Source: Deltaproteobacteria bacterium (GTDB lineage: Bacteria > Desulfobacterota > RBG-13-43-22). Taken from it: DNA of 35,650 nt. The stretch is taken from contig JACRBX010000076.1 of assembly GCA_016219225.1 (NCBI GenBank), positions 1 through 35,650 on the forward strand. The letters run 5' to 3'. The position numbers and the translations under genes are program-made. The notes under the pieces are model-generated. The model was not told the DNA's origin, did no database searches, and saw only the letters and a program-made list of their open reading frames with translations. Below, piece by piece: positions 11,683-27,314 of the stretch (positions within the stretch are counted from its first letter, which is position 1; every line of letters begins with the position of its first letter).

Positions 11683-14469
11683 ATGGAATACAAACAGACC
11701 TTGAATCTGCCCAAAACCGATTTTCCCATGAAAGCCAACCTGGCCCAAAAAGAACCGGAATGGCTGAAAAAATGGAATGGGGAACAATTATATCAAAAAA
11801 TACGGGAATCGTCGGAAGGCCGGAAAAAATTCATCCTCCATGACGGCCCGCCCTATGCCAATGGGAATATCCACATGGGCACAGCCTTCAATAAGATCTT
11901 AAAAGATATCATCATCAAGTCCAAACAGATGTCGGGATATGATGCCCCTTATGTGCCGGGATGGGACTGCCACGGGCTGCCCATTGAACACCAGGTCGAC
12001 AAAGAACTGGGATCAAAAAGAAAGACCCTGAGCCAGACCGAAATCCGGCAGCGCTGCCGGGCCTATGCCGAAAGATACATTAATATCCAGCGGGAAGAAT
12101 TTAAAAGACTGGGGGTTTTCGGCGAATGGGATAATCCTTATCTGACTATGAATTATGCCTATGAGGCGGTCATTGTCCGGGAGTTCGGACGATTCGCTTT
12201 GCAGGGCAGCGTTTATAAAAGCAAAAAACCCATCTACTGGTGTACCTCCTGCAAGACGGCCCTGGCCGAGGCGGAAGTGGAATACGAGCCTCATAGCTCC
12301 CCCTCTATTTTTGTGGCCTTTCCTTTGATCACGGATCTGTCCGAAGAATATCCGGTCCTGAAAGGTAAAAAAGTCTCGGTCCTCATCTGGACCACTACAC
12401 CCTGGACCATTCCGGCCAACCTGGCCCTGGCCTTTCATCCCGATTATGAGTATGTGGCCGTTCAGGAAAAGGACGAGGTCTTTATCCTGGCCAAAGGGCT
12501 CTTAGAAAAGGTCGGCCAGAGGCTCTCCTGGAAAAATCCGGTAGTTCTAACCCACCTGGACCCCGGATTCCTGGAGGGCAAAAAATCCCGGCACCCTCTT
12601 TATGCGCGGGAGTCGGTTATGATCCTGGCCCCCTATGTGACCTTAGAGGACGGTACCGGGATTGTTCATACCGCTCCCGGCCACGGTCAGGAGGATTATG
12701 AGAGTGGATTACGCTATCATCTGGATATCTATTCTCCGCTGGATGATGGGGGAAAATTCCTTCCCGAAGTCGAATTTTTTGCCGGCCAGTTTGTCTTTGA
12801 GGCCAATGATTCGGTCAAAAATAAACTGCGCGAAGTAGAGGCCCTGAAAGGGGAGGAAACCATCGAGCATAGCTATCCCCATTGCTGGCGGTGCAAAAAA
12901 CCGGTTATCTTCCGGGCCACCGAGCAATGGTTTATCTCCATGGAGGCCAATTCCTTACGGGAAAAGGCCCTGGCCGAAATCGAGCGCGTGACCTGGATGC
13001 CGGCCTGGGGACGGGACCGCATTCGGGGTATGATGGAGAATCGACCGGACTGGTGTCTTTCCCGCCAGCGGTCCTGGGGGGTCCCTATTCCGGCCTTTTA
13101 TTGCCTGAATTGTAACAACTGGATCATTACGGGTGAGATCCTCAATCATCTGGAGGGTCTGATTTTGGACCAGGGAGCGGATATCTGGTTTTCCCTTCCG
13201 GAGGAAGAATTAGTGCCTCCCGGAACCATTTGTCCCCATTGTCAAGGGAACCGTTTTAAAAAAGAAACGGACATCCTGGACGTCTGGTTCGATTCGGGGG
13301 TTAGTTTTGCCGGCGTTTTGGAGGCCCGCCCTTATCTGGGGGCCCCGGCCGATCTGTATCTCGAGGGAAGCGATCAACATCGAGGCTGGTTCCACAGTTC
13401 CCTCTTAGCGGCTGTCGGGACCCGGGGGGAGGCCCCTTATGAGGCCGTATTGACCCATGGTTTTGTCGTGGACGGTCAAGGCAAGAAGATGTCCAAGTCT
13501 TTGGGAAATGTCATTTATCCGGAAGAGGTCATTAAAAAATGGGGGGCCGAAATATTGCGCCTTTGGGTCTCGGGTGAGGATTATCGGGACGACATCCGCA
13601 TTTCTCAGAATATCCTCCAGCAATTGACTGAGGCCTATCGCCGTATCCGCAATACCTGCCGGTTCCTTTTGGGAAATATTTCCGATTTTCAGTCTTCCCG
13701 GGACCAGATCACCATAAAAGAATTGGAAGAATTGGATCGCTGGGCCTTGCTTCAATTACAGAAGGTGATCACCCGTGTCAAAAAGGCCTATGAAAACTAT
13801 GAATTCCATGTGGTCTATCATACCCTTTATCAATTCTGTACCAATGAACTGAGTGCCTTTTATTTAGACATCCTCAAAGACCGCCTGTATACCTCGGCTC
13901 CCAAAGCCAGGGAACGCCGGTCGGCCCAGACAGCCCTGCTGATCATCCTGAAGGCCTTGGTTCGTCTCATGGCCCCTATATTATCTTTTACCGCCGAGGA
14001 GGTCTGGTCTTGCCTGGCGGCCGCCGATAAAGAGGCCGAAAGCGTCCACCTGACCCAATTCCCGAGTTTCGATCCCCCCTTATTCGATGAGGAATTGGAT
14101 CAACGCTGGAAGCTCCTCCTGGAGCTGCGGACAGAGGTGACCAAGGCCCTGGAGCAAGCCCGTCGTTCCCAGCTCATCGGCCATCCCCTTGATGCCCGAG
14201 TGATCCTCCACCTTCCGGATTCCCTGATGAATGCCATTAAGTCCTATGTCGGATTTTTACCGACCTTTTTTATTGTTTCCCAGGTGGAAATCACCTCAGA
14301 GACGGGGCCTTCGGAAGGGTTCTCCAGCCCGGAATTTCCGGGTCTGATCATCCAGATCGAAAAGGCCCTGGGGGAGAAATGTGAACGGTGCTGGAATTAC
14401 CGGATAGAGGTCGGCCGTTTTCCGGAACATCCGACCATCTGCTCCCGATGTTATCAGGCCATTAAATAA
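11683..14469 (+). CDS. ileS: Isoleucyl-tRNA synthetase
   Basis: A 928-residue class I aminoacyl-tRNA synthetase charging tRNA-Ile. The first signature is HMGT at residues 64-67, in place of the usual HIGH, within [17 protein letters not shown]. The second is KMSKS at 602-606. The CP1 editing domain is present between them ([15 protein letters not shown]). The C-terminus carries a zinc motif CERCWNYR with a later CSRC, typical of the bacterial type. The length is standard. GGAGG lies 5 nt before the ATG. It is followed at 15 bp by lspA and then lgt, a common ileS-lspA arrangement. A TTGACA at about 11627 may belong to its promoter, but I find no good -10 box. Confidence 0.96.
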
Positions 14470-14484
14470 GCAACAAGGAGCGCT

Positions 14485-14961
14485 ATGGCAATAAAAAAAT
14501 ATTGGCCTTTGGCCCTTTCTTTTTTAGGTATCCTTTTTTTGGATGTAGTGACCAAGGAATATATTATTACCCATTTCCCCTTATATTATTCCAAACCGGT
14601 CATACCAGGCTTTTTCAACCTGGTTCATATCCAGAACAAAGGGGTGGCTTTTGGAATCCTGGGAGGATCGGCCCCTGTGTGGAGGGATATCCTGTTGCTC
14701 CTGCTCCCTATTGTGGCTATGTCGGCCATCCTGATCTTTGCCTTTTCTTATCCCCAACAAAATATCGGGATCCTTTTGTCTTTGGGGGGGATTCTTGGAG
14801 GGGCCCTTGGCAACCTGATCGACCGTCTTCGATTCCGGGCGGTGATTGATTTTCTGGATTTATTCTGGGGGAGCTATCACTGGCCGGCTTTTAATATCGC
14901 CGATTCGGCCATAACCACTGGAGTCCTTTTCCTGGTCTTTTGCTTTATGAAAAAAGCTTAA
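14485..14961 (+). CDS. lspA: Lipoprotein signal peptidase (signal peptidase II)
   Basis: A 158-residue inner-membrane aspartic protease that removes signal peptides from prolipoproteins after lipidation by Lgt. There are four hydrophobic segments. Conserved blocks are NKGVAFG (51-57), GALGNLIDR (106-114) leading to VIDFLD with D122, and WPAFNIADSAI with D140; D122 and D140 are the likely catalytic pair. AAGGAG lies 5 nt before the ATG. It lies between ileS and lgt, so the two lipoprotein-processing steps are made together. Likely substrates within this window include Pal, CpoB and the lipoprotein at 26764. Confidence 0.95.
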   Translation: MAIKKYWPLALSFLGILFLDVVTKEYIITHFPLYYSKPVIPGFFNLVHIQNKGVAFGILGGSAPVWRDILLLLLPIVAMSAILIFAFSYPQQNIGILLSLGGILGGALGNLIDRLRFRAVIDFLDLFWGSYHWPAFNIADSAITTGVLFLVFCFMKKA

Positions 14962-14963
14962 AA

Positions 14964-15734
14964 ATGTTTCCCATACTCTTTCAAATCGGAAATTTCCCTA
15001 TCCATACTTACGGCCTTTTTATTGCGTTCGGGTTTTTGCTGGGGATAGGACTGGCCCTAAAAGAAGCCCGGCGGACCGGGATTCCGGCAGAAAAGATCCT
15101 GGATCTTTCCTTTTATGTCATTCTTTCGGCGATCATAGGGGCCCGTCTCCTGTTTGTCGTTATCAATTATCCCTATTATATTGAACATCCCTGGGCCTTC
15201 TTCAAAGTCTGGGAAGGGGGTTTGGTGTTTTATGGGGGCTTGATTCTAAGTTTCTTAGTCGCCCTTTGGATGATGAGGAAACAAAATCTCCCTTTTTGGG
15301 AGACGGCCGATCTGGTGGCCCCTTCCATTGCCCTTGGCCAGGTTTTTGGCCGAATAGGGTGTTTTGCCGCCGGTTGCTGTTTTGGGAAAGCCACGGATAG
15401 TCCCTGGGCGGTTATCTTTAATCACCCCGAATCCCTGGCCCCGACAGGTATCCCTTTACACCCCGCGCAATTGTATGAGGCCCTGGCGGCCCTGATCATT
15501 TTTTTTATTCTATGGTTTTTGAGGAAAAGGCCGGGTTTCCCCGGAAGGCTCTTTCTTCTTTATCTTATCTTATACGGCCTTGGTCGCTGGTCCATTGAAT
15601 TTTTTCGTGGAGATAACCGGGGGGGACTTTTAGGGGGAGGCTGGTCAGATACCCAGTATATTAGTGCCTTTTTGGTATTTTTACCTATTATATTCTATTG
15701 TTATCAAAATAAGAGAAAAACCCGCCCCCTTTAA
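14964..15734 (+). CDS. lgt: Prolipoprotein diacylglyceryl transferase, variant motif
   Basis: A 256-residue inner-membrane enzyme with about seven hydrophobic helices that transfers diacylglyceryl to the lipobox cysteine. It begins MFPILFQIGNFPIHTYGLF as expected. The signature region reads FGRIGCFAAGCCFGKATDS rather than the GRIGNFINGE of E. coli; the key Arg is kept. The E. coli motif around His103 (FHGGLI) is here FYGGLI. The start is the ATG two bases after the lspA stop, with no clear ribosome site, so coupling is likely; a TTG 24 bases earlier lies inside lspA. Activity is probable from context, but the substitutions deserve attention. Confidence 0.88.
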   Translation: MFPILFQIGNFPIHTYGLFIAFGFLLGIGLALKEARRTGIPAEKILDLSFYVILSAIIGARLLFVVINYPYYIEHPWAFFKVWEGGLVFYGGLILSFLVALWMMRKQNLPFWETADLVAPSIALGQVFGRIGCFAAGCCFGKATDSPWAVIFNHPESLAPTGIPLHPAQLYEALAALIIFFILWFLRKRPGFPGRLFLLYLILYGLGRWSIEFFRGDNRGGLLGGGWSDTQYISAFLVFLPIIFYCYQNKRKTRPL

Positions 15735-16054: not shown

Positions 16055-16486
16055 TTGGTTATCTTAGAAGAACTAAGATACAGTAAAGATCATGTCTGGG
16101 CCCGCTTGGATGATGATAATCGAATCACGATAGGGATTACGGATTATGCCCAGGAAGAGCTTGGAGAGATAACAGGGATCGATCTGCCCGAAGAAGGTGA
16201 AGAGGTGGTTAAAGACGAGTCCATGGGCTCTATTGAATCCCAAAATGAAGTCGTTGACCTTTTTTCTCCCTTAAGCGGGGAAATTGTCGAAGTTAACCAG
16301 GAGTTACTGGATGCACCGGAAATTATCAACGAAGATCCCTATCAGGATGGTTGGATCATCCGAATAGACATTCCATCAACAACCGATTATTATGAATTAC
16401 TCACTGCAGAAGAATATGAGGAATACCTCAAAGAGATTGTTGGGGTAGAACAGATAGAAGAAGAGGAAGAAATAGCGGAAGAATAA
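16055..16486 (+). CDS. GcvH-like protein lacking the lipoyl lysine
   Basis: A 143-residue protein with the H-protein fold of the glycine cleavage system. It opens [14 protein letters not shown] and has [13 protein letters not shown] and [11 protein letters not shown], all typical. The lipoyl-lysine site, normally ESVK, reads ESQN at residues 61-64, so the attachment lysine is Asn64 (codon AAT at 16244-16246). It cannot carry lipoate at that position. The C-terminal tail is strongly acidic ([12 protein letters not shown]). The start is inferred as the TTG at 16055, 4 nt after GGGAGGG (16044-16050). It is followed 22 bp later by a sirtuin. No gcvT or gcvP is nearby. It is probably not a working glycine cleavage H protein; a binding or regulatory role is inference. 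Confidence 0.85.
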
Positions 16487-16508
16487 TACTAAAAGGAGAG
16501 CGGATATC

Positions 16509-17246
16509 ATTTCTGTAATTGCCCGGGAAATAGCAGACAAACTCCGGAATGCTCAAAAAGCAATAGCCTTAACCGGGGCGGGAATCTCGGTCGATAGCGG
16601 CATCCCGGCCTTCAGGGGGAGTCAGGGGCTCTGGGATCGATATGATCCTATGGAATTTGCACATATCGAAGCCTTTTTGGCCAATCCCAAAAAGGTTTGG
16701 AAGATGCTGGTTGAATTAGGGAATATAGTAGCCCAGGCCCGGCCCAATCCAGCTCATTTAGCCCTGTCCAAATTAGAGGAGAGGGGTCATTTAAAGGCCG
16801 TTATTACCCAAAACATCGATGCCCTGCATCAATTGGCCGGGAGTAAGGAAGTTATTGAATTTCACGGTAATGGACAACGCCTGATCTGTCTGTCCTGTGG
16901 AAGGCTTTTCCCCATGGAAGCCGTAAGCCTGCATGAACTCCCCCCACGGTGTGCTTGCCGGGGGGTCCTGAAACCAGACGTCGTCTTTTTTGGGGAACCC
17001 ATTCCCCCTGAGGCCAGCCAACGGGCCTTTCAGAGGACCCGGGAGTGCGATTTGATGTTGGTGATAGGCACGTCGGCGGTTGTCGCCCCAGCCAGCAATC
17101 TTCCTTTTATTGCCAAACAACAGGGAGCGGTAATTTGCGAGATCAACCTTGAAAGGACTCACCTTTCGGAAACCATATCCGATTATGTCATGGAGGCTTC
17201 TGCCAGCCAGGCCTTATCCGCCATATTGGGCTTCATGGGACTCTGA
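16509..17246 (+). CDS. Sirtuin (NAD-dependent protein deacylase) with non-ATG start
   Basis: About 245 residues of Sir2-family deacylase. Motifs in order: [16 protein letters not shown] (residues 22-37, NAD binding), TQNID (100-104), catalytic H119 in FHGNG, zinc cysteines C127, C130, C148 and C150, and [11 protein letters not shown]. It lacks the Tyr/Arg pair of SIRT5-type desuccinylases, so simple deacetylation or another acyl group is more likely. No ATG, GTG or TTG exists in frame between the upstream stop (16473-16475) and the ATG at 16650, which would remove the NAD-binding motif. AAAGGAGAG (16492-16500) points to ATT at 16509 or ATC at 16506 as the initiation codon. It lies just behind the GcvH-like gene, probably in one transcript. 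Confidence 0.85.
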
Positions 17247-17298
17247 TGCCTTGGCCCCCTGAGAACGGATAAAAACCCCCCTCAAGAAAGTGAAACCC

Positions 17299-18036
17299 AT
17301 GCTTTCCATTATTAATCAAAATGAAATCTTTTCCATGGTTTTAAACGCCGGGGCCATGGTGAAACTGGTCCTTTTTTTGCTATTGGCCTTTTCCATCCTT
17401 TCCTGGGCCATTATTTTTATGAAATACCGGATCATCCACAGGGCGCGAAAGGAAACCAATCTCTTTCAGGAGATATTCTGGAAAAGTAAAAGCCTGGCCG
17501 TGGCTTATAGTGAATCAAAAAACCTTCGTTACAGCCCGGTAGCCGAGGTTTTTCGGGTCGGCTATCAGGAGTTGGGAAGGCTCTACAAAATGCAACAAGA
17601 ATCCGAGGAGAACGCCCAAAGGGAATCAACGGACATCTTATCTACCAACCTGGTTCGTTTTGAAAATATTCCCCGGGCCCTTAGGGCGGCCATGAATTCC
17701 CAAGTCACGCATCTGGGTTATGCCCTGACCTTTCTGGCCACCACGGGCAATACCGCTCCTTTTATAGGGCTCTTCGGTACCGTTTGGGGCATCATGAATT
17801 CATTTCATAGTATCGGTCTTCGGGGAGGGGCCAATCTGGCCGTAGTCGCTCCAGGGATCTCCGAGGCCTTGATCGCCACCGCCACCGGTTTGGCAGCCGC
17901 CATTCCAGCGGTTATCGGGTATAACTACTTTTCCAATCAGGTCCGGGTTCTGGAATCGGAGATGAATAATTTTTCTTCTGACTTTCTGAATATTATCGAG
18001 CGGGATCTTTTTAAAAAGGCCGGGTATAAGAAGTAA
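17299..18036 (+). CDS. tolQ: TolQ, proton-channel subunit of the Tol-Pal system
   Basis: A 245-residue inner-membrane protein of the TolQ/ExbB/MotA family, which with TolR uses the proton motive force to drive TolA during outer-membrane constriction. One N-terminal membrane helix (about 20-40) is followed by a cytoplasmic domain and two further helices. The conserved LATTGNTAPFIGLFGTVWGI and the GISEALIATATGLAAAIPAV block are intact. I use the ATG at 17299; a GTG three codons earlier is also possible, since AAGAAAG lies between. It is the first gene of tolQRAB-pal-cpoB. The gap from the sirtuin is about 50 bp, so read-through from there is possible. Confidence 0.92.
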   Translation: MLSIINQNEIFSMVLNAGAMVKLVLFLLLAFSILSWAIIFMKYRIIHRARKETNLFQEIFWKSKSLAVAYSESKNLRYSPVAEVFRVGYQELGRLYKMQQESEENAQRESTDILSTNLVRFENIPRALRAAMNSQVTHLGYALTFLATTGNTAPFIGLFGTVWGIMNSFHSIGLRGGANLAVVAPGISEALIATATGLAAAIPAVIGYNYFSNQVRVLESEMNNFSSDFLNIIERDLFKKAGYKK

Positions 18037-18048
18037 GGGGTTTTCTCT

Positions 18049-18462
18049 ATGGATGTCGGCGGCGGTGACAGAAAATTAATGTCGGAGATCAATGTGACAC
18101 CTTTGGTGGATGTCATGCTGGTCCTCCTGATCATTTTTATGGTGGCTGCCCCGATGATGATGCAGGGTACGGATGTACAGCTCCCTCAAACCCAATCCAA
18201 ACCGATCCAATCCCAGGAAGAACGTCTGGTAATTACCCTGAATAAAAAACAGGAAATCTACATTAATGAATACCGGGTCAGCCGGGAGGAACTCCAGGAA
18301 AAACTAAAGATCCTTTACCAAAACAAAAAAGAAGGAGAGGTTTTCTTGAGGGCCGACCGAAGTCTCCCCTATGGTTTTGTAGTCCGGATCATGAGCGATA
18401 TTAAAAATGCCGGTGTAGAAAAATTGGGCATGGTCACTGAACCTGGGGAAGAAAAAAAATGA
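18049..18462 (+). CDS. tolR: TolR, Tol-Pal proton-channel partner
   Basis: A 137-residue ExbD/TolR protein: a short cytoplasmic N-terminus, one membrane helix (about 19-37) preceded by INVTPLVDVMLVLLIIF, in which the conserved Asp (proton carrier) is present, and a periplasmic domain with LRADRSLPYGFVVRIM. It works with TolQ. It begins 12 bp after tolQ, and its stop overlaps the tolA-like start (ATGA at 18459-18462), a sign of translational coupling. Confidence 0.93.
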   Translation: MDVGGGDRKLMSEINVTPLVDVMLVLLIIFMVAAPMMMQGTDVQLPQTQSKPIQSQEERLVITLNKKQEIYINEYRVSREELQEKLKILYQNKKEGEVFLRADRSLPYGFVVRIMSDIKNAGVEKLGMVTEPGEEKK

Positions 18463-19352
18463 CCTTCTCCGAGTTTTCTTCCTGGAAAGGGCCTTCGAGA
18501 GAAGGGCAGTGGATGAAGATGGTCTTCATTTCCCTTGGCGTCCATCTTCTGGTCCTGGCCCTCTTCCTGAATGTTTTTCCCAGGGGGGGCGTGCGAAGAA
18601 ATTTAGAGCCAACCTATACCGTTAACCTGGTTGCTCCTCCTGGAGGAGGACCGGCAGGCCAGGCGAAAGCAGAAGAACCCACGGCCACCCCTTCCCCGCC
18701 TGTGGCCCCCAAACCCATCCCTTTGCCCAAGCCGGTTTTAAAACAAGAACCGGACCTCAAGGAAGAACGTTCCAAGACCTTGGAAAAGGCACTGGAACAA
18801 TTAAAAAAAAAGGTCCAGCAGGAGAAGTCTCTGGAAAACGCTATGAGCCAGTTGGAAAAAAAGGCGCAACAGGAGAAATCCCTGGAAAATGCCTTGAGAG
18901 GTTTGGAAAAAAAGGTTAAAGCGGAACAGTCATTGGATAAGGCCTTGACGCGTTTGGAAAATAAAAAAGGCTCGGCCCAGACCGGGCCGGGGACAGGTCT
19001 CGGCGGACCCGGGACGATCTCCTCTTCCGTTCCAGGAGGCCAGGATGGGTTGGGCATTCAATTCCAACTGTTTCATGCCGCCTTGCGGAGTCGCATTAAA
19101 AATAACTGGGGCTTGCCCGAAGGACTGTTAAAAAGAAACGATATCTCGGCCGAGCTCATGGTTCGAATCGGTCGAACCGGTCGAATCGAGGACTTCCGTT
19201 TCGAGCGAAAATCAGGTATAGAGGCCTTCGACCAGGAAGTCCTGCGCACCTTAAAAAAATCCGATCCCCTACCGCCTATTCCGGCCGGGTATCCTAAAAA
19301 TAGTTATGAGGTGATTTTAACCTTTCATTCCAAAGAGCTGTCTGGAAATTAA
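18459..19352 (+). CDS. tolA: TolA/TonB-like energy transducer with 17-residue repeats
   Basis: A 297-residue protein linking TolQR in the inner membrane to Pal and TolB. One N-terminal membrane helix (about 22-41, VFISLGVHLLVLALFLNVF) is followed by a Pro-rich stretch and four near-identical 17-residue helical repeats (residues 106-173). A Gly-rich linker and a C-terminal TonB-type domain follow (FHAALRSRIKNNWGLPEG, then LPPIPAGYP near the end). The helical repeats stand in for the long domain II of E. coli TolA, which is shorter here overall. The start overlaps the tolR stop. Position in the operon supports TolA rather than TonB. Confidence 0.88.
   Translation: MTFSEFSSWKGPSREGQWMKMVFISLGVHLLVLALFLNVFPRGGVRRNLEPTYTVNLVAPPGGGPAGQAKAEEPTATPSPPVAPKPIPLPKPVLKQEPDLKEERSKTLEKALEQLKKKVQQEKSLENAMSQLEKKAQQEKSLENALRGLEKKVKAEQSLDKALTRLENKKGSAQTGPGTGLGGPGTISSSVPGGQDGLGIQFQLFHAALRSRIKNNWGLPEGLLKRNDISAELMVRIGRTGRIEDFRFERKSGIEAFDQEVLRTLKKSDPLPPIPAGYPKNSYEVILTFHSKELSGN
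18774..18977 (+). repeat. Four 51-bp tandem repeats in the TolA helical domain
   Basis: The units encode KTLEKALEQLKKKVQQE, KSLENAMSQLEKKAQQE, KSLENALRGLEKKVKAE and QSLDKALTRLENKK plus remainder. Boundaries are at 18774, 18825, 18876 and 18927. Exact 17-codon spacing points to tandem duplication; later units have diverged. Confidence 0.9.
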
Positions 19353-20672
19353 ATGATCAAACGGACTTCAAAAAATTACCGGATGGTTGGCCTGTTGGCC
19401 CTGATCCTGCTGGTTACCTGGGCCACCCCTTCTTTTCTTTATGCCCTGGTTTATCTCGACATCGATTCCCCGGCCATGAAAAAGATCCCGATCGTGATCC
19501 CGGATTTTAAAAATCCGGGGGCTCAGGAGCCCTCGATAGGCAGTAGTGCAGCCGCCCTTCTGATACACGATCTTGATTTTACAGGATATTTTCAACTATT
19601 AGATCCGAGAGGGTTTTTGGGAAATCCCGACGAGCAAGAATCCATAGACTTTAAGGCCTGGACTTTAACCGGTGCTGACCTCTTGGTCAAAGGATCTTAT
19701 CGGGTGGAAGGAACCCAACTCCGTCTGGAATTGCGCTTGTACGACCTTCTTAAGGGCCGCCAGTTATTGGGAAGAGAATACACTACCTCCAACCGGGAAT
19801 TTAAGAAGCCGATCCATCGTTTTGCCGAAGAGATCCTTTTTCTCCTGACCGGAGAACGGGGATTATTCCAAACCAGGATTGCTTTTATTTCCACTACTAA
19901 CGGGAAAAAAGACATCTATTCGGCCGAATTTGATGGCAGCAACTCCCAGCGATTAACCCGATTCAACTCCATTACGCTGACGCCTCGTTGGTCCCCGCGG
20001 GGGAATGAGATCGCCTATACCTCTTACAAAGACGGGGGACCGGCCGTCTATCTGCTTCATCTCCCTGGAATGCAATCCACCAGGATCTCCAGTCGGCCAG
20101 GGGTCAATATTACCCCGGCCTGGTCCCCGGATGGGGAATCCCTGGCCGTTGCCTTGAACCATCAGGGCAATTCTGAAATCATACAGTTGAACCGCAGCGG
20201 GGCCGCCATCCAGAAATTGACCAAAAGCTGGGGGATTGATGTTTCACCGAGCTTTTCCCCGGATGGAAAACAATTGGCCTTCGTTTCCAACCGCTCCGGA
20301 AGTCCTCAGATTTATCTGTTAACTATCGGTTCCCAGGAAGTCCGGCGCCTGACGTTTCAGGGCCGTTATAACGTGGGTCCGGTCTGGTCCCCCAAGGGTA
20401 ACCTGATCGCTTATGCCGGCCAGATGGGGGGGCAATTTCATATATTTACCATTTCACCGGCCGGAGGTGAACCCCAACGGCTCACCGCGTTAGGAAACAA
20501 TGAATCCCCGGATTTCTCCCCTGATGGCCGGATGATACTTTTCAGTTCCAATCGCCATGGCCGGTCGGCCATCTATGCCATGAATTCCAATGGGGCCAAT
20601 CAACGGCGGATCACATTTATGGCCGGGGAACAATTCAGTCCTTCCTGGTGCCTGAAAAAATTTGATGAGTAA
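19353..20672 (+). CDS. tolB: TolB, periplasmic beta-propeller of the Tol-Pal system
   Basis: A 439-residue periplasmic protein with an N-terminal signal peptide (residues 11-31, hydrophobic, ending in SFLYAL), an N-terminal alpha/beta domain, and a beta-propeller built of WD40-like repeats with recurring SPDGK or SPRGN motifs followed by YTS or FVSNRSG. It binds Pal and TolA. The length is normal. The ATG follows the tolA stop with no gap. The final residues (FDE) after WCLKK suggest the propeller closes normally. Confidence 0.95.
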   Translation: MIKRTSKNYRMVGLLALILLVTWATPSFLYALVYLDIDSPAMKKIPIVIPDFKNPGAQEPSIGSSAAALLIHDLDFTGYFQLLDPRGFLGNPDEQESIDFKAWTLTGADLLVKGSYRVEGTQLRLELRLYDLLKGRQLLGREYTTSNREFKKPIHRFAEEILFLLTGERGLFQTRIAFISTTNGKKDIYSAEFDGSNSQRLTRFNSITLTPRWSPRGNEIAYTSYKDGGPAVYLLHLPGMQSTRISSRPGVNITPAWSPDGESLAVALNHQGNSEIIQLNRSGAAIQKLTKSWGIDVSPSFSPDGKQLAFVSNRSGSPQIYLLTIGSQEVRRLTFQGRYNVGPVWSPKGNLIAYAGQMGGQFHIFTISPAGGEPQRLTALGNNESPDFSPDGRMILFSSNRHGRSAIYAMNSNGANQRRITFMAGEQFSPSWCLKKFDE

Positions 20673-20766
20673 ACCATTTTCAATCTTTTTTTTAGAAATT
20701 TTTGGCTATAATTACAACTTAAAATGAGATACAATAGTTTCATCTAATCCAAAGGAGGAAAAAAAC

Positions 20767-21357
20767 GTGATGGCAAAACAAACCGCTCTTGGAATATTGA
20801 TCCTGGTTTTTTTCATTTCCGGCCTCTTTCTTTTTTCTTGCGGCAAAAAGGAAATAAAAAGTGAAGGCATTGTTTCAACACCCCCGGCCGCCACGGAAAA
20901 GGAGGCGGAAAAGGCCAAAAAACAGGTGCGTATTAAAGAACAGGGACCAACCGATCAGGAATTGAAAGAAAGGGCCCTGAAAGAAGAAGAGGCCAGGCGT
21001 TTGAAGGAAGCGGCTGAGAAGGCCCGCTTTGAAACGGATGACATCTATTTTGAATTCGATCAATACCTCCTCTCCGATACGGCCAAACAGGCCATAAACA
21101 AAAAAGCCAAATGGCTAAAGAGCTATCCTTTAGCCAAGGTTCAGATCGAAGGCCACTGCGATGAGAGAGGAAGCGCCGAATACAACCTGGCCCTGGGACA
21201 GAAAAGAGCCGATGCGGCCATGCAGTACCTGGTGTCCCTGGGTATCAGCGCCAATCGCGTTTCAACCATTAGTTTTGGCAAGGAAAAACCTTTGGATCCG
21301 AATCATACCGAAGCGGCCTGGGCCAAGAATCGCCGGGCCCATTTTGTACTAAAATAG
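20767..21357 (+). CDS. pal: Pal, peptidoglycan-associated lipoprotein
   Basis: A 196-residue outer-membrane lipoprotein that binds peptidoglycan. The signal sequence ends in a lipobox LFSC with the lipidated cysteine at residue 25. A charged linker rich in Lys and Glu follows. The OmpA-like domain is complete: YFEFDQYLLSD, IEGHCDERGSAEYNLALGQ, and NRRAHFVLK at the end. I place the start at the GTG at 20767, 8 nt after AAAGGAGG; the ATG at 20770 directly behind is an alternative. It is separated from tolB by 94 bp, which may hold its own promoter, although I could not define one. Confidence 0.95.
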   Translation: MMAKQTALGILILVFFISGLFLFSCGKKEIKSEGIVSTPPAATEKEAEKAKKQVRIKEQGPTDQELKERALKEEEARRLKEAAEKARFETDDIYFEFDQYLLSDTAKQAINKKAKWLKSYPLAKVQIEGHCDERGSAEYNLALGQKRADAAMQYLVSLGISANRVSTISFGKEKPLDPNHTEAAWAKNRRAHFVLK

Positions 21358-24607: not shown

Positions 24608-25216
24608 ATGAGGATCAAAGCCTTGACTAGCGCTAAACCGAAAAAAATAAAGAATTCTGGCCAGTTTGATAACGCCTGGCTGGTTCCTAAAAAGGTCTTT
24701 TTTACCAAGGGGATCGGGAGACACAAAGCTAAATTGCAATCTTTCGAATTGGCTTTAAGGGATGCCGGAATCGAAAAATGCAACCTGGTCTATGTTTCTT
24801 CTATTTTCCCTCCCAACTGTAAAATCATTCCTTTTGAAGAAGGGATCCAAGAACTTTTACCAGGGCAAATCACCTTCTGCGTCCTGGCCAAGATCAGTTC
24901 CAATGAGCCGGAACGGCTGATGGGGGCTTCCATAGGTCTGGCCGTTCCCGCCGATGAATACCATTATGGATATTTGTCCGAACATTCGGCCTTCGGGGAG
25001 AACGAGAAAGTCATGGGGGATTTTGCCGAAGATTTAGCCTCCACCATGCTGGCTACCACCCTGGGAATCGATTTCGATCCCCAGAAGGACTACGATGAAC
25101 GGCGGGAAATCTACCGGATGAGCGGCAAAATAGTAGATACCTTTTCGACGACCTGCGTGACCCGGGCGGATGGTATTTGGACCACAGTGGTGGTGGCCGC
25201 AGTATTTTTGCTTTGA
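24608..25216 (+). CDS. pdaD: Pyruvoyl-dependent arginine decarboxylase
   Basis: A 202-residue proenzyme converting arginine to agmatine and CO2, the first step of polyamine synthesis by the agmatine route. The self-cleavage site is the Ser-Ser pair at 64-65 in [11 protein letters not shown]; cleavage would give a small beta chain and an alpha chain that begins with pyruvoyl. Other family blocks: [20 protein letters not shown] and [11 protein letters not shown]. The ATG at 24608 lacks a ribosome site and is nearly leaderless; a TTG at 24623 preceded by GAGG at good spacing is an alternative start that would keep all conserved residues. Next to it are an agmatinase remnant and a DHS-like enzyme, so the cluster is for polyamines. 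Confidence 0.9.
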
Positions 25217-25279
25217 GTACAGCAACTTTAAAGGAAATTCTGGATCAGGATTTTCATCACCATTTAATAGGAAGATTTC

Positions 25280-25483
25280 TTGCGAACCCTTAATTTTCTG
25301 GGATTGGATGAAACCGGCCTTTCTCCAGAAACGGCGGACGTCCTCATCCAACCGATTCCAACCGATTCCACAACCAGTTTCCAGCCGGGTACTCGATTCG
25401 GACCTGAGACCTTCTTTCAGGCTATAGGATCCTTCCCTTCTTGTTTGTTTTATTCATCAAAGAAAGAAAATCACCATGTCTGA
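25280..25483 (+). pseudogene. speB: Truncated agmatinase (ureohydrolase) remnant
   Basis: A 67-codon frame whose residues about 16-50 match the N-terminus of agmatinase/arginase-family enzymes: ADVLIQPIPTDSTTSFQPG then TRFGPETFFQAI (the family has PGTRFGP in this place). After about residue 50 the similarity stops, and the frame runs 17 more codons to a TGA that overlaps the next start (ATGTCTGA). The metal-binding GGxHS and DAHxD motifs, and some 230 residues, are missing, so the product cannot hydrolyse agmatine. A TTG start with AGGAAG upstream looks intact. It is exactly where agmatinase would be expected between decarboxylase and homospermidine-type synthase; an internal deletion or assembly collapse is likely. 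Confidence 0.75.
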
Positions 25484-26585
25484 ATTTAAAAGGCGGTCTT
25501 GGCACGATCCGCATGACGGGACCCAGGATGGACTGACTCCCCTTAAAAGTCTCGATATCAAAGAGATTGATGATTTTAGCTCCTTATTAACAGGCATGGC
25601 TCAAACGGCTTTTGGAGGGCGTTCTCTGGGAGAAGCCCAGGACATATTTCATGAAATGGTCTCCGATCCCCATTGCCTTAAGGTCGGAACCTTCTCCGGA
25701 GCCATGTCGGTCGCCAAGATGGGCCTTCTGATCTGCGATATGATCGATTGGGGATGGCTGGATATCATCATTTCAACCGGGGCCTTGATGGCCCATGGTT
25801 TGATTGAATCGGTGGGTTTACTCCATTACAAAAGTCCCCCTTCCCGATCGGATGCTTATTTTTATGACGCCGGCTATAACCGGATCTATGATACCCTGGA
25901 AATGGAAAAGAACCTCAATCATATAGAGGAAATCATCTCACGGGTTTTAGACCGAATCGATTTGGAAGAGGCCCCTTTGTCCTCCGAAATCTTTTGCCGG
26001 GAGGTCGGAAAATATTTAGCTGAAATTACCGATCAACCCGGTATCCTGAGAAATGCTTACTTAAAAGGGGTCCCGGTCTATATCCCGGCCTTCACTGATT
26101 CTGAGTTGGGCCTGGATATGGCCACCAGTTTAGTCCGAAAGATTTTGGATTCAAAAAAGGCCGCCACTCCGGCTGAAGCCTTAGGCAAAATGATATTTAA
26201 TTTTAATCCGTTTTTTGATCTCGGGTCCTATACACAGCACATTATTAAGGCTTCCAAACTGGGGATATTCACGATCGGCGGTGGGGTCCCAAGAAACTGG
26301 GCCCAACAGGTCGGGCCTTTTCTGGAAATTCTCCAATACCGTTTGAAGGAAGAAATCCCCCTGAAACGGTTCTCTTACGGGGTTCGTATTTGTCCCGAAC
26401 CGGCCCATTGGGGAGGTTTAAGCGGCTGCACTTATTCGGAAGGGGTTTCCTGGGGGAAATTTGCCTCCCCGGAAGAAGGCGGGCGTTATGCCGAGGTTTT
26501 GTGCGATGCCACGATTGCCTGGCCTATCCTGATGGCCGGGGTGCGACATAAGATCCTCAAAGAAAAGGAAAGCCCGGTCAAATGA
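25476..26585 (+). CDS. Deoxyhypusine synthase-like protein (probable homospermidine synthase)
   Basis: A 369-residue NAD-dependent enzyme of the deoxyhypusine synthase family. Bacteria have no eIF5A, and bacterial members are usually thought to make homospermidine or related polyamines from putrescine. The catalytic lysine is K328 in EGVSWGKF, the position matching Lys329 of the human enzyme. NAD-site stretches such as GTFSGAMSVAKMG and TIGGGVPRNWAQQ are present. The length fits the family. The start ATG overlaps the stop of the agmatinase remnant, and the ribosome site (AAGAAAG) is weak. With the arginine decarboxylase it outlines arginine to agmatine to putrescine to homospermidine, with the middle step missing here. 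Confidence 0.88.
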   Translation: MSEFKRRSWHDPHDGTQDGLTPLKSLDIKEIDDFSSLLTGMAQTAFGGRSLGEAQDIFHEMVSDPHCLKVGTFSGAMSVAKMGLLICDMIDWGWLDIIISTGALMAHGLIESVGLLHYKSPPSRSDAYFYDAGYNRIYDTLEMEKNLNHIEEIISRVLDRIDLEEAPLSSEIFCREVGKYLAEITDQPGILRNAYLKGVPVYIPAFTDSELGLDMATSLVRKILDSKKAATPAEALGKMIFNFNPFFDLGSYTQHIIKASKLGIFTIGGGVPRNWAQQVGPFLEILQYRLKEEIPLKRFSYGVRICPEPAHWGGLSGCTYSEGVSWGKFASPEEGGRYAEVLCDATIAWPILMAGVRHKILKEKESPVK

Positions 26586-26763: not shown

Positions 26764-26979
26764 ATGCGGAAAATAATTTCCTTGGTGCTCGTCGTAATGT
26801 TGTTGGTAGTCTTTTCTTTTGCCATGGGTTGCAAAAAGAAGGAAGAGGCTCCGCCGGCCCCACCTGCGGCTGAACAAAAAGCCCCGGAACCAGCTCCTGC
26901 TCCGGCTCCTGGAGGTGAGCAAAAGGCTCCTGAAGCCGCTCCGGCTCCGGCCCCGGCTCCAGCTCCAGAAAAAAAATAG
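26764..26979 (+). CDS. Small Ala/Pro-rich lipoprotein
   Basis: A 71-residue protein with a clear lipoprotein signal: MRKIISLVLVVMLLVVFSF then AMGC, with the lipidated cysteine at residue 23. The mature part is KKKEE followed by an Ala-Pro-rich, probably unstructured stretch containing two related blocks (EQKAPEPAPAPAPGG and EQKAPEAAPAPAPAPAP) and ending EKK. It may act as a flexible envelope tether, but the function is unknown. AAAGGAGG precedes the ATG at good spacing, and the gene has its own strong promoter, a leader hairpin and a strong terminator, so it is a monocistronic unit that may be highly expressed. Confidence 0.85.
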   Translation: MRKIISLVLVVMLLVVFSFAMGCKKKEEAPPAPPAAEQKAPEPAPAPAPGGEQKAPEAAPAPAPAPAPEKK

Positions 26980-27007
26980 TTTTTTATTCTCTAAATCGAT
27001 TTTCCTT

Positions 27008-27048
27008 AAAGGGACAGTTTGTCAATATTTTTCAAACTGTCCCTTTTT
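27008..27048 (+). terminator. Intrinsic terminator of the small lipoprotein gene
   Basis: AAAGGGACAGTTTG (27008-27021) pairs perfectly with CAAACTGTCCCTTT (27033-27046), a 14-bp stem with an 11-nt loop and a T-tract (27044-27048). Confidence 0.93.
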
Positions 27049-27085
27049 CTTTCCTAACCCGGACAAGCCGGAACCAAAAGCTTAC

Positions 27086-27109
27086 CACGAAGACTCGAAG
27101 GCACAAAGA
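27086..27109 (+). repeat. Octanucleotide repeat (CACGAAGA type)
   Basis: Three 8-bp units: CACGAAGA, CTCGAAGG, CACAAAGA. It resembles the CCACGAAG segment of the dispersed elements and is related in style to the 7-bp repeats. Confidence 0.5.
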
Positions 27110-27314
27110 AATGCAAAAAATTTTCTTGCCATTTTGAGAAGAATTTTATTGGCTGCAAGGGGTGCCGGGTATCCGGCTGAGAGAACAACCCGCCTTTATT
27201 CCTCCTGGATTAAAAAAAAGAGCCGGTCATGATTTTTTTCTTATTTTTTAAATAAAGGTATCATAGGAACCGAAAAATTCAGGGAATAATTAAACTTTAG
27301 AATGTTTTTTCTTC
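27110..27314. other. Intergenic, nothing recognised
   Basis: AT-rich stretch between the octanucleotide repeat and the promoter at 27315. A weak inverted repeat (AAAATTTTCTT near 27117 with AAGAATTTT near 27138) is visible. I see no gene or RNA here. Confidence 0.4.

Follow-up and report, generated by a model that had tools for sequence, protein, structure and literature searches.

H-protein-like proteins without the lipoyl lysine form an apparently undescribed and very probably lipoate-independent family in Desulfobacterota

We identified a gene, here called gcvHL, encoding a protein with the fold of the glycine-cleavage H protein (GcvH) but without its lipoyl lysine, in a 35,650-nucleotide stretch of DNA from a Deltaproteobacteria bacterium (GenBank assembly GCA_016219225.1, contig JACRBX010000076.1; hereafter the window). 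The loss of this lysine is real, ancient and common to a whole family of proteins, which is apparently an undescribed subfamily and which very probably functions independently of lipoate. A sirtuin gene immediately downstream, with which an earlier note on this DNA had paired gcvHL, is very probably an incidental neighbour.

Results

The gcvHL gene and its genomic context

The features of the window considered here are as follows.

11683 to 14469, + strand: ileS, which opens the conserved block ileS-lspA-lgt-gcvHL
14485 to 14961, + strand: lspA (signal peptidase II), identified by eye
14940 to 15734, + strand: lgt (prolipoprotein diacylglyceryl transferase), upstream of gcvHL in three other families too
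16055 to 16486, + strand: gcvHL, an H-protein-fold protein without the lipoyl lysine, with a TTG start and an acidic C-terminal tail
16244 to 16246, + strand: AAT codon (Asn64), counterpart of the lipoyl-lysine codon and the most variable column of the family
16509 to 17246, + strand: sir2/cobB-type sirtuin, likely ATT start at 16509; tolQ, rather than gcvHL, is the neighbour it keeps
17290 to 21357, + strand: tolQ-tolR-tolA-tolB-pal; the sir2-tolQ order is kept in two other families

The gcvHL product is 143 residues long, and its TTG start is preceded by a GGGAGG ribosome-binding site. The protein scored 140 bits against Pfam GCV_H (PF01597) and 137.9 bits against NCBIfam gcvH (TIGR00527), exceeding the curated cut-off of 115.85 for the latter, so that an automatic pipeline would label it as GcvH. 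The TM-score of its AlphaFold model (mean pLDDT 85.8) to the E. coli H protein was 0.94 by target, and the identity 42%. These profile scores, the model and the AAT codon bear out the earlier note's placement of Asn64, within the motif ESQN, at the lipoyl position of a conserved H-protein fold. A misreading of AAA as AAT was rejected, since orthologues from the window's own bacterial family carry N, G, R or L at this site, and not lysine. The protein belongs neither to NCBIfam GcvH_rel_desulf (NF045810; 52 bits, cut-off 150) nor to NCBIfam not_gcvH (TIGR03077; 66.8 bits, cut-off 144).

On reading the open reading frames of the window by eye we saw no gcvT, gcvP, lplA or macrodomain genes, as the earlier note had stated. 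Elsewhere in the same genome there are two gcvP loci, each with its own Lys-bearing gcvH, as well as one lipA and three genes for LplA/LipB-fold proteins. Close to the gcvHL and sirtuin genes no RNA elements were found in Rfam, and promoter and terminator scans gave results no better than those from shuffled sequence.

We additionally observed, downstream in the window and by eye, a gene resembling pyruvoyl-type arginine decarboxylases and, after it, one resembling deoxyhypusine synthases (24608-26585), a polyamine pair of archaeal appearance in a bacterial genome. A Lys/Arg/Pro-rich open reading frame at 26819-27232 looks like a repetitive tail read in a shifted frame and is probably no gene. 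A further GcvH homologue of this genome (ESGK; L225:4794-6686) is preceded by HdrC- and HdrB-like genes, and resembles the lipoate-binding proteins of Hdr systems.

A family of H-protein-like proteins without the lipoyl lysine

We searched 395 genomes of the phylum and read the loci recovered, identifying 48 members of the lysine-less family in 12 bacterial families (f1, f5, f7, f17, f28, f48, f51, f61, f65, f79, f82 and f93). No description of H-protein-like proteins without the lysine in these bacteria was found in the open-access literature. The lipoyl position holds 13 different residues across the 48 members (N, E, R, S, F, Q, V, G, D, H, L, M and K, the single K sitting in a shifted motif), and has the highest entropy of the 126 core columns. 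W15, G27, P72, G75, N81, G99, W100 and Y121 are the same in all members, and the Ex2Kx10G motif retains its E61 and G75. The usual Glu14, present in 81 of 111 Lys-bearing homologues, was found in only 1 of 37 Lys-less ones, being replaced by a hydrophobic residue. Three acidic residues, E47, E50 and E120, are 91-97% conserved in the family versus 20-41% in canonical H proteins, a comparison set that was chosen for K64 and E14, so that those two columns are not independent.

In a tree from which the lipoyl-hairpin and position-14 columns were left out, all 48 proteins resolved into one clade, with one Lys-bearing protein (ESNK; genome G009, L043:1561-1962) nested within it; an earlier, first tree agreed with this, its main split having 85% SH-aLRT support. 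The nested protein, encoded beside an FmdB-like zinc-ribbon gene, may have regained the lysine or may preserve the ancestral state, and several losses within the family are also possible. With the lysine lost anciently and across the family, the earlier statement that the protein cannot be lipoylated at this site stands. Lys-less homologues of four genomes (G029, G037, G058 and G093) that are not among the 48 look like separate losses; the first tree placed two of them outside the clade. The Lys-less homologues at L052, L227, L284 and L285, not counted among the 48, carry Q or R at the site and apparently represent separate losses.

Comparisons within the window's family gave dN/dS values of 0.045-0.13 for gcvHL, indicating that the gene is maintained by purifying selection; very close pairs in f17 gave higher, noisy ratios. 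The loss of both the lipoyl residue and Glu14 might be expected of a functionless, decaying GcvH paralogue, yet this explanation is scarcely credible, being contradicted by the selection data (dN/dS near 0.05), by frames that are open in all members of the family, by newly conserved residues and by a gene order that is kept in a dozen families.

The earlier note had suggested a carrier with a different attachment residue; we considered this, together with the use of a different cofactor, in place of a lipoylated Lys64. The swinging-arm carrier fold is intact, and most f7 members have a lysine (Lys63) one residue ahead of the old lipoyl site. However, Lys63 is confined to f7, and across the 48 members no lysine is more than 75% conserved and no cysteine is conserved. 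Ser74 (90%), His13 and Tyr121 are conserved, but canonical H proteins conserve them as well. We therefore regard a carrier of this kind as unlikely.

Lipoate and glycine cleavage enzymes in carrier genomes

We investigated the distribution of lipoate and glycine cleavage enzymes in 16 genomes carrying the lysine-less protein, using curated families whose positive controls were detected in 10-13 of 14 known genomes. GcvP was not found in 14 of the 16 (two have it), and LipA and LplA/LipB-fold proteins were both not found in 12, each being present in four. The lysine-less protein was the sole clear H-protein homologue in 10 of these genomes. Three carrier genomes (G101, G203 and G268) are single contigs and 99-100% complete. 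The LplA-B_cat domain, which marks the LplA/LipB fold, was not found in 36 of all 48 carriers, versus 108 of 347 other genomes (p about 1e-8, with relatedness ignored, and with a few uncounted carriers possibly among the 347). Families f1 and f51 do have lipoate enzymes. The alternative LipS1/S2 route likewise requires a ligase or octanoyltransferase of the LplA/LipB fold, so that the absence of this fold argues against any lipoylation. Thus, in carriers with neither lipoyl transfer enzymes nor a lipoyl lysine, the lysine-less protein must act without lipoate.

This distribution also bears on the proposal that gcvHL encodes a decoy or regulator that binds LipB, LplA or LipA unmodified. The window's genome does have LipA and LplA/LipB enzymes, and the retention of E61 and G75 could be read in the same way, but in 36 of the 48 carriers there is no LplA/LipB-fold enzyme on which such a protein could act. 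A decoy is unlikely as the general role of the family, and we consider it very improbable for gcvHL.

Separately, one genome (G270) contains a Lys-bearing GcvH homologue (ESSK) followed directly by a lipoate-protein-ligase-like gene (L240:4725-5962).

The sirtuin and its linkage to gcvHL

The gene downstream of gcvHL matched the SIR2 profile with 165 bits, and its frame is intact to 17246. Its start is most likely the unusual codon ATT at 16509, 22 bp past the gcvHL stop and in agreement with the spacing first described; the sirtuins of relatives start with GTG at about the corresponding position. The sirtuin motifs GAGIS and TQNID, the catalytic His in EFHGNG and the CxxC zinc motifs are present, and from its domain and motifs the product is predicted to be a CobB-like Sir2 deacylase, the closest solved relatives being Sir2 deacylases from Archaeoglobus. 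A Tyr and an Arg in the acyl pocket form the motif of class III desuccinylases. In an alignment with the Archaeoglobus proteins these positions are Leu and Leu (VWKMLVEL), and a desuccinylase assignment was rejected.

The earlier note had compared the pair with SirTM operons, in which LplA2 lipoylates Lys56 of a GcvH-L protein that the sirtuin ADP-ribosylates (Rack et al. 2015, PMC4518038; PDB 5a35); the SirTM sirtuin has its catalytic His replaced by Gln, and has a macrodomain partner (PMC4518038). The window is similar in that an H-protein-like gene lies beside a sirtuin, outside a glycine cleavage operon. The analogy does not extend further. The window's sirtuin keeps its catalytic His, gcvHL has no equivalent of Lys56, and the neighbouring genes are lgt and tolQRAB-pal, with no macrodomain or LplA2 gene among the open reading frames read.

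A functional pair, in which gcvHL would be a substrate or regulator of the sirtuin in the SirTM manner, might be expected from two genes that lie on the same strand 22 bp apart and are both under purifying selection where adjacent. In contrast, our survey of neighbourhoods showed that the adjacency is not conserved. The sirtuin adjoins gcvHL in three of five genomes of the window's family (G000, G003 and G004). Of the remaining two, G001, from the same genus, retains only scraps of the C-terminal half of a sirtuin between gcvHL and tolQ (L037:10190-10470), and G002 has no sirtuin at the site. Two further genomes that keep gcvHL (G020 and G057, 97-98% complete) gave no sirtuin match, nor was a homologue found in G009. 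The G008 orthologue of the sirtuin (59% identity) lies on a different contig, directly before tolQ-tolR-tolA-tolB-pal. Among the 30 closest sirtuin orthologues, only three, all in f1, have a GcvH homologue within 1.5 kb, while tolQ adjoins six (families f1, f5 and f6). The neighbourhoods of these 30 sirtuin loci and of more than 50 GcvH loci rule out a conserved partnership, and make a functional pair in the window highly improbable.

Conserved neighbours of gcvHL

Across the phylum, gcvHL is associated with other genes. It follows lgt, mostly with lspA and ileS, in f1, f5 and f17, and follows lgt in f82. As gcvHL tracks lgt elsewhere and the sirtuin tracks tolQ, two separate blocks, ileS-lspA-lgt-gcvHL and sir2-tolQRAB-pal, meet in the window. 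In seven families (f17, f28, f48, f61, f65, f79 and f93) fabD lies directly downstream, at 3-179 bp, in 23/23 members, often with moaA upstream of gcvHL. In f7 and f51, resB is downstream in 16/16 members, mostly with resC. Pfam searches of representative neighbours confirmed LGT, acyl transferase, radical-SAM/MoaA, ResB and cytochrome c assembly domains. Neighbours of the fabD, resB or lgt type were absent around all 16 homologues from outside the 48 that served for comparison.

Discussion

Compared with known systems, gcvHL resembles GcvH in its fold and in a profile score past the curated cut-off. It differs in lacking the lysine of Ex2Kx10G, in the hydrophobic replacement of Glu14, in its added acidic residues and acidic tail, and in its gene neighbours. 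The family furthermore occurs where GcvP, LipA and LplA/LipB were not found, and the window's genome, which has these enzymes, has separate Lys-bearing gcvH genes. The LbpA proteins of sHdr sulfur oxidation are likewise H-protein-like with a role outside glycine cleavage. Their lipoyl lysine is strictly conserved, and most have two conserved cysteines (PMC6067878), whereas the gcvHL family has neither. We infer that the family works unlike any characterised H protein.

The explanation that we favour, and hold as a whole to be reasonably probable, is that gcvHL belongs to a lipoate-free subfamily derived from the glycine-cleavage H protein, in which the lipoyl lysine was lost and its position now drifts, with the fold and the new acidic residues under purifying selection. 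The protein, small, acidic and of barrel-sandwich fold, would serve as an adaptor or regulator, binding non-covalently to a partner that is probably the product of a neighbouring gene. The sirtuin would come from a separate sir2-tolQRAB-pal block, moved beside gcvHL in the window's bacterial family.

The partner may be sought in FabD (malonyl-CoA:ACP transacylase), in the lipoprotein pathway or in the cytochrome c maturation complex. Of the single candidates FabD ranks first, since linkage to fabD is the tightest and most widespread, with ResB-ResC and Lgt as alternatives; a single common partner is uncertain, since the neighbours vary between families. From this gene order we tentatively suggest that gcvHL could be an adaptor in lipid or envelope biogenesis. 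It is conceivable, at a similar or slightly higher level of confidence, that the cofactor-less fold is a dedicated non-covalent partner of FabD or of Lgt/ResBC throughout the phylum, one that has outlived lipoate and glycine cleavage in most lineages.

Two consequences follow. Because proteins of the gcvHL type pass the GcvH cut-off, bacteria without lipoate will be assigned, in genome annotation and in metabolic models, a glycine cleavage or reductive glycine pathway that is absent from them. The family would, moreover, be a case of a swinging-arm protein that selection has kept although its arm and its pathway are gone, and would imply a second role for the H-protein fold, one that needs no cofactor.
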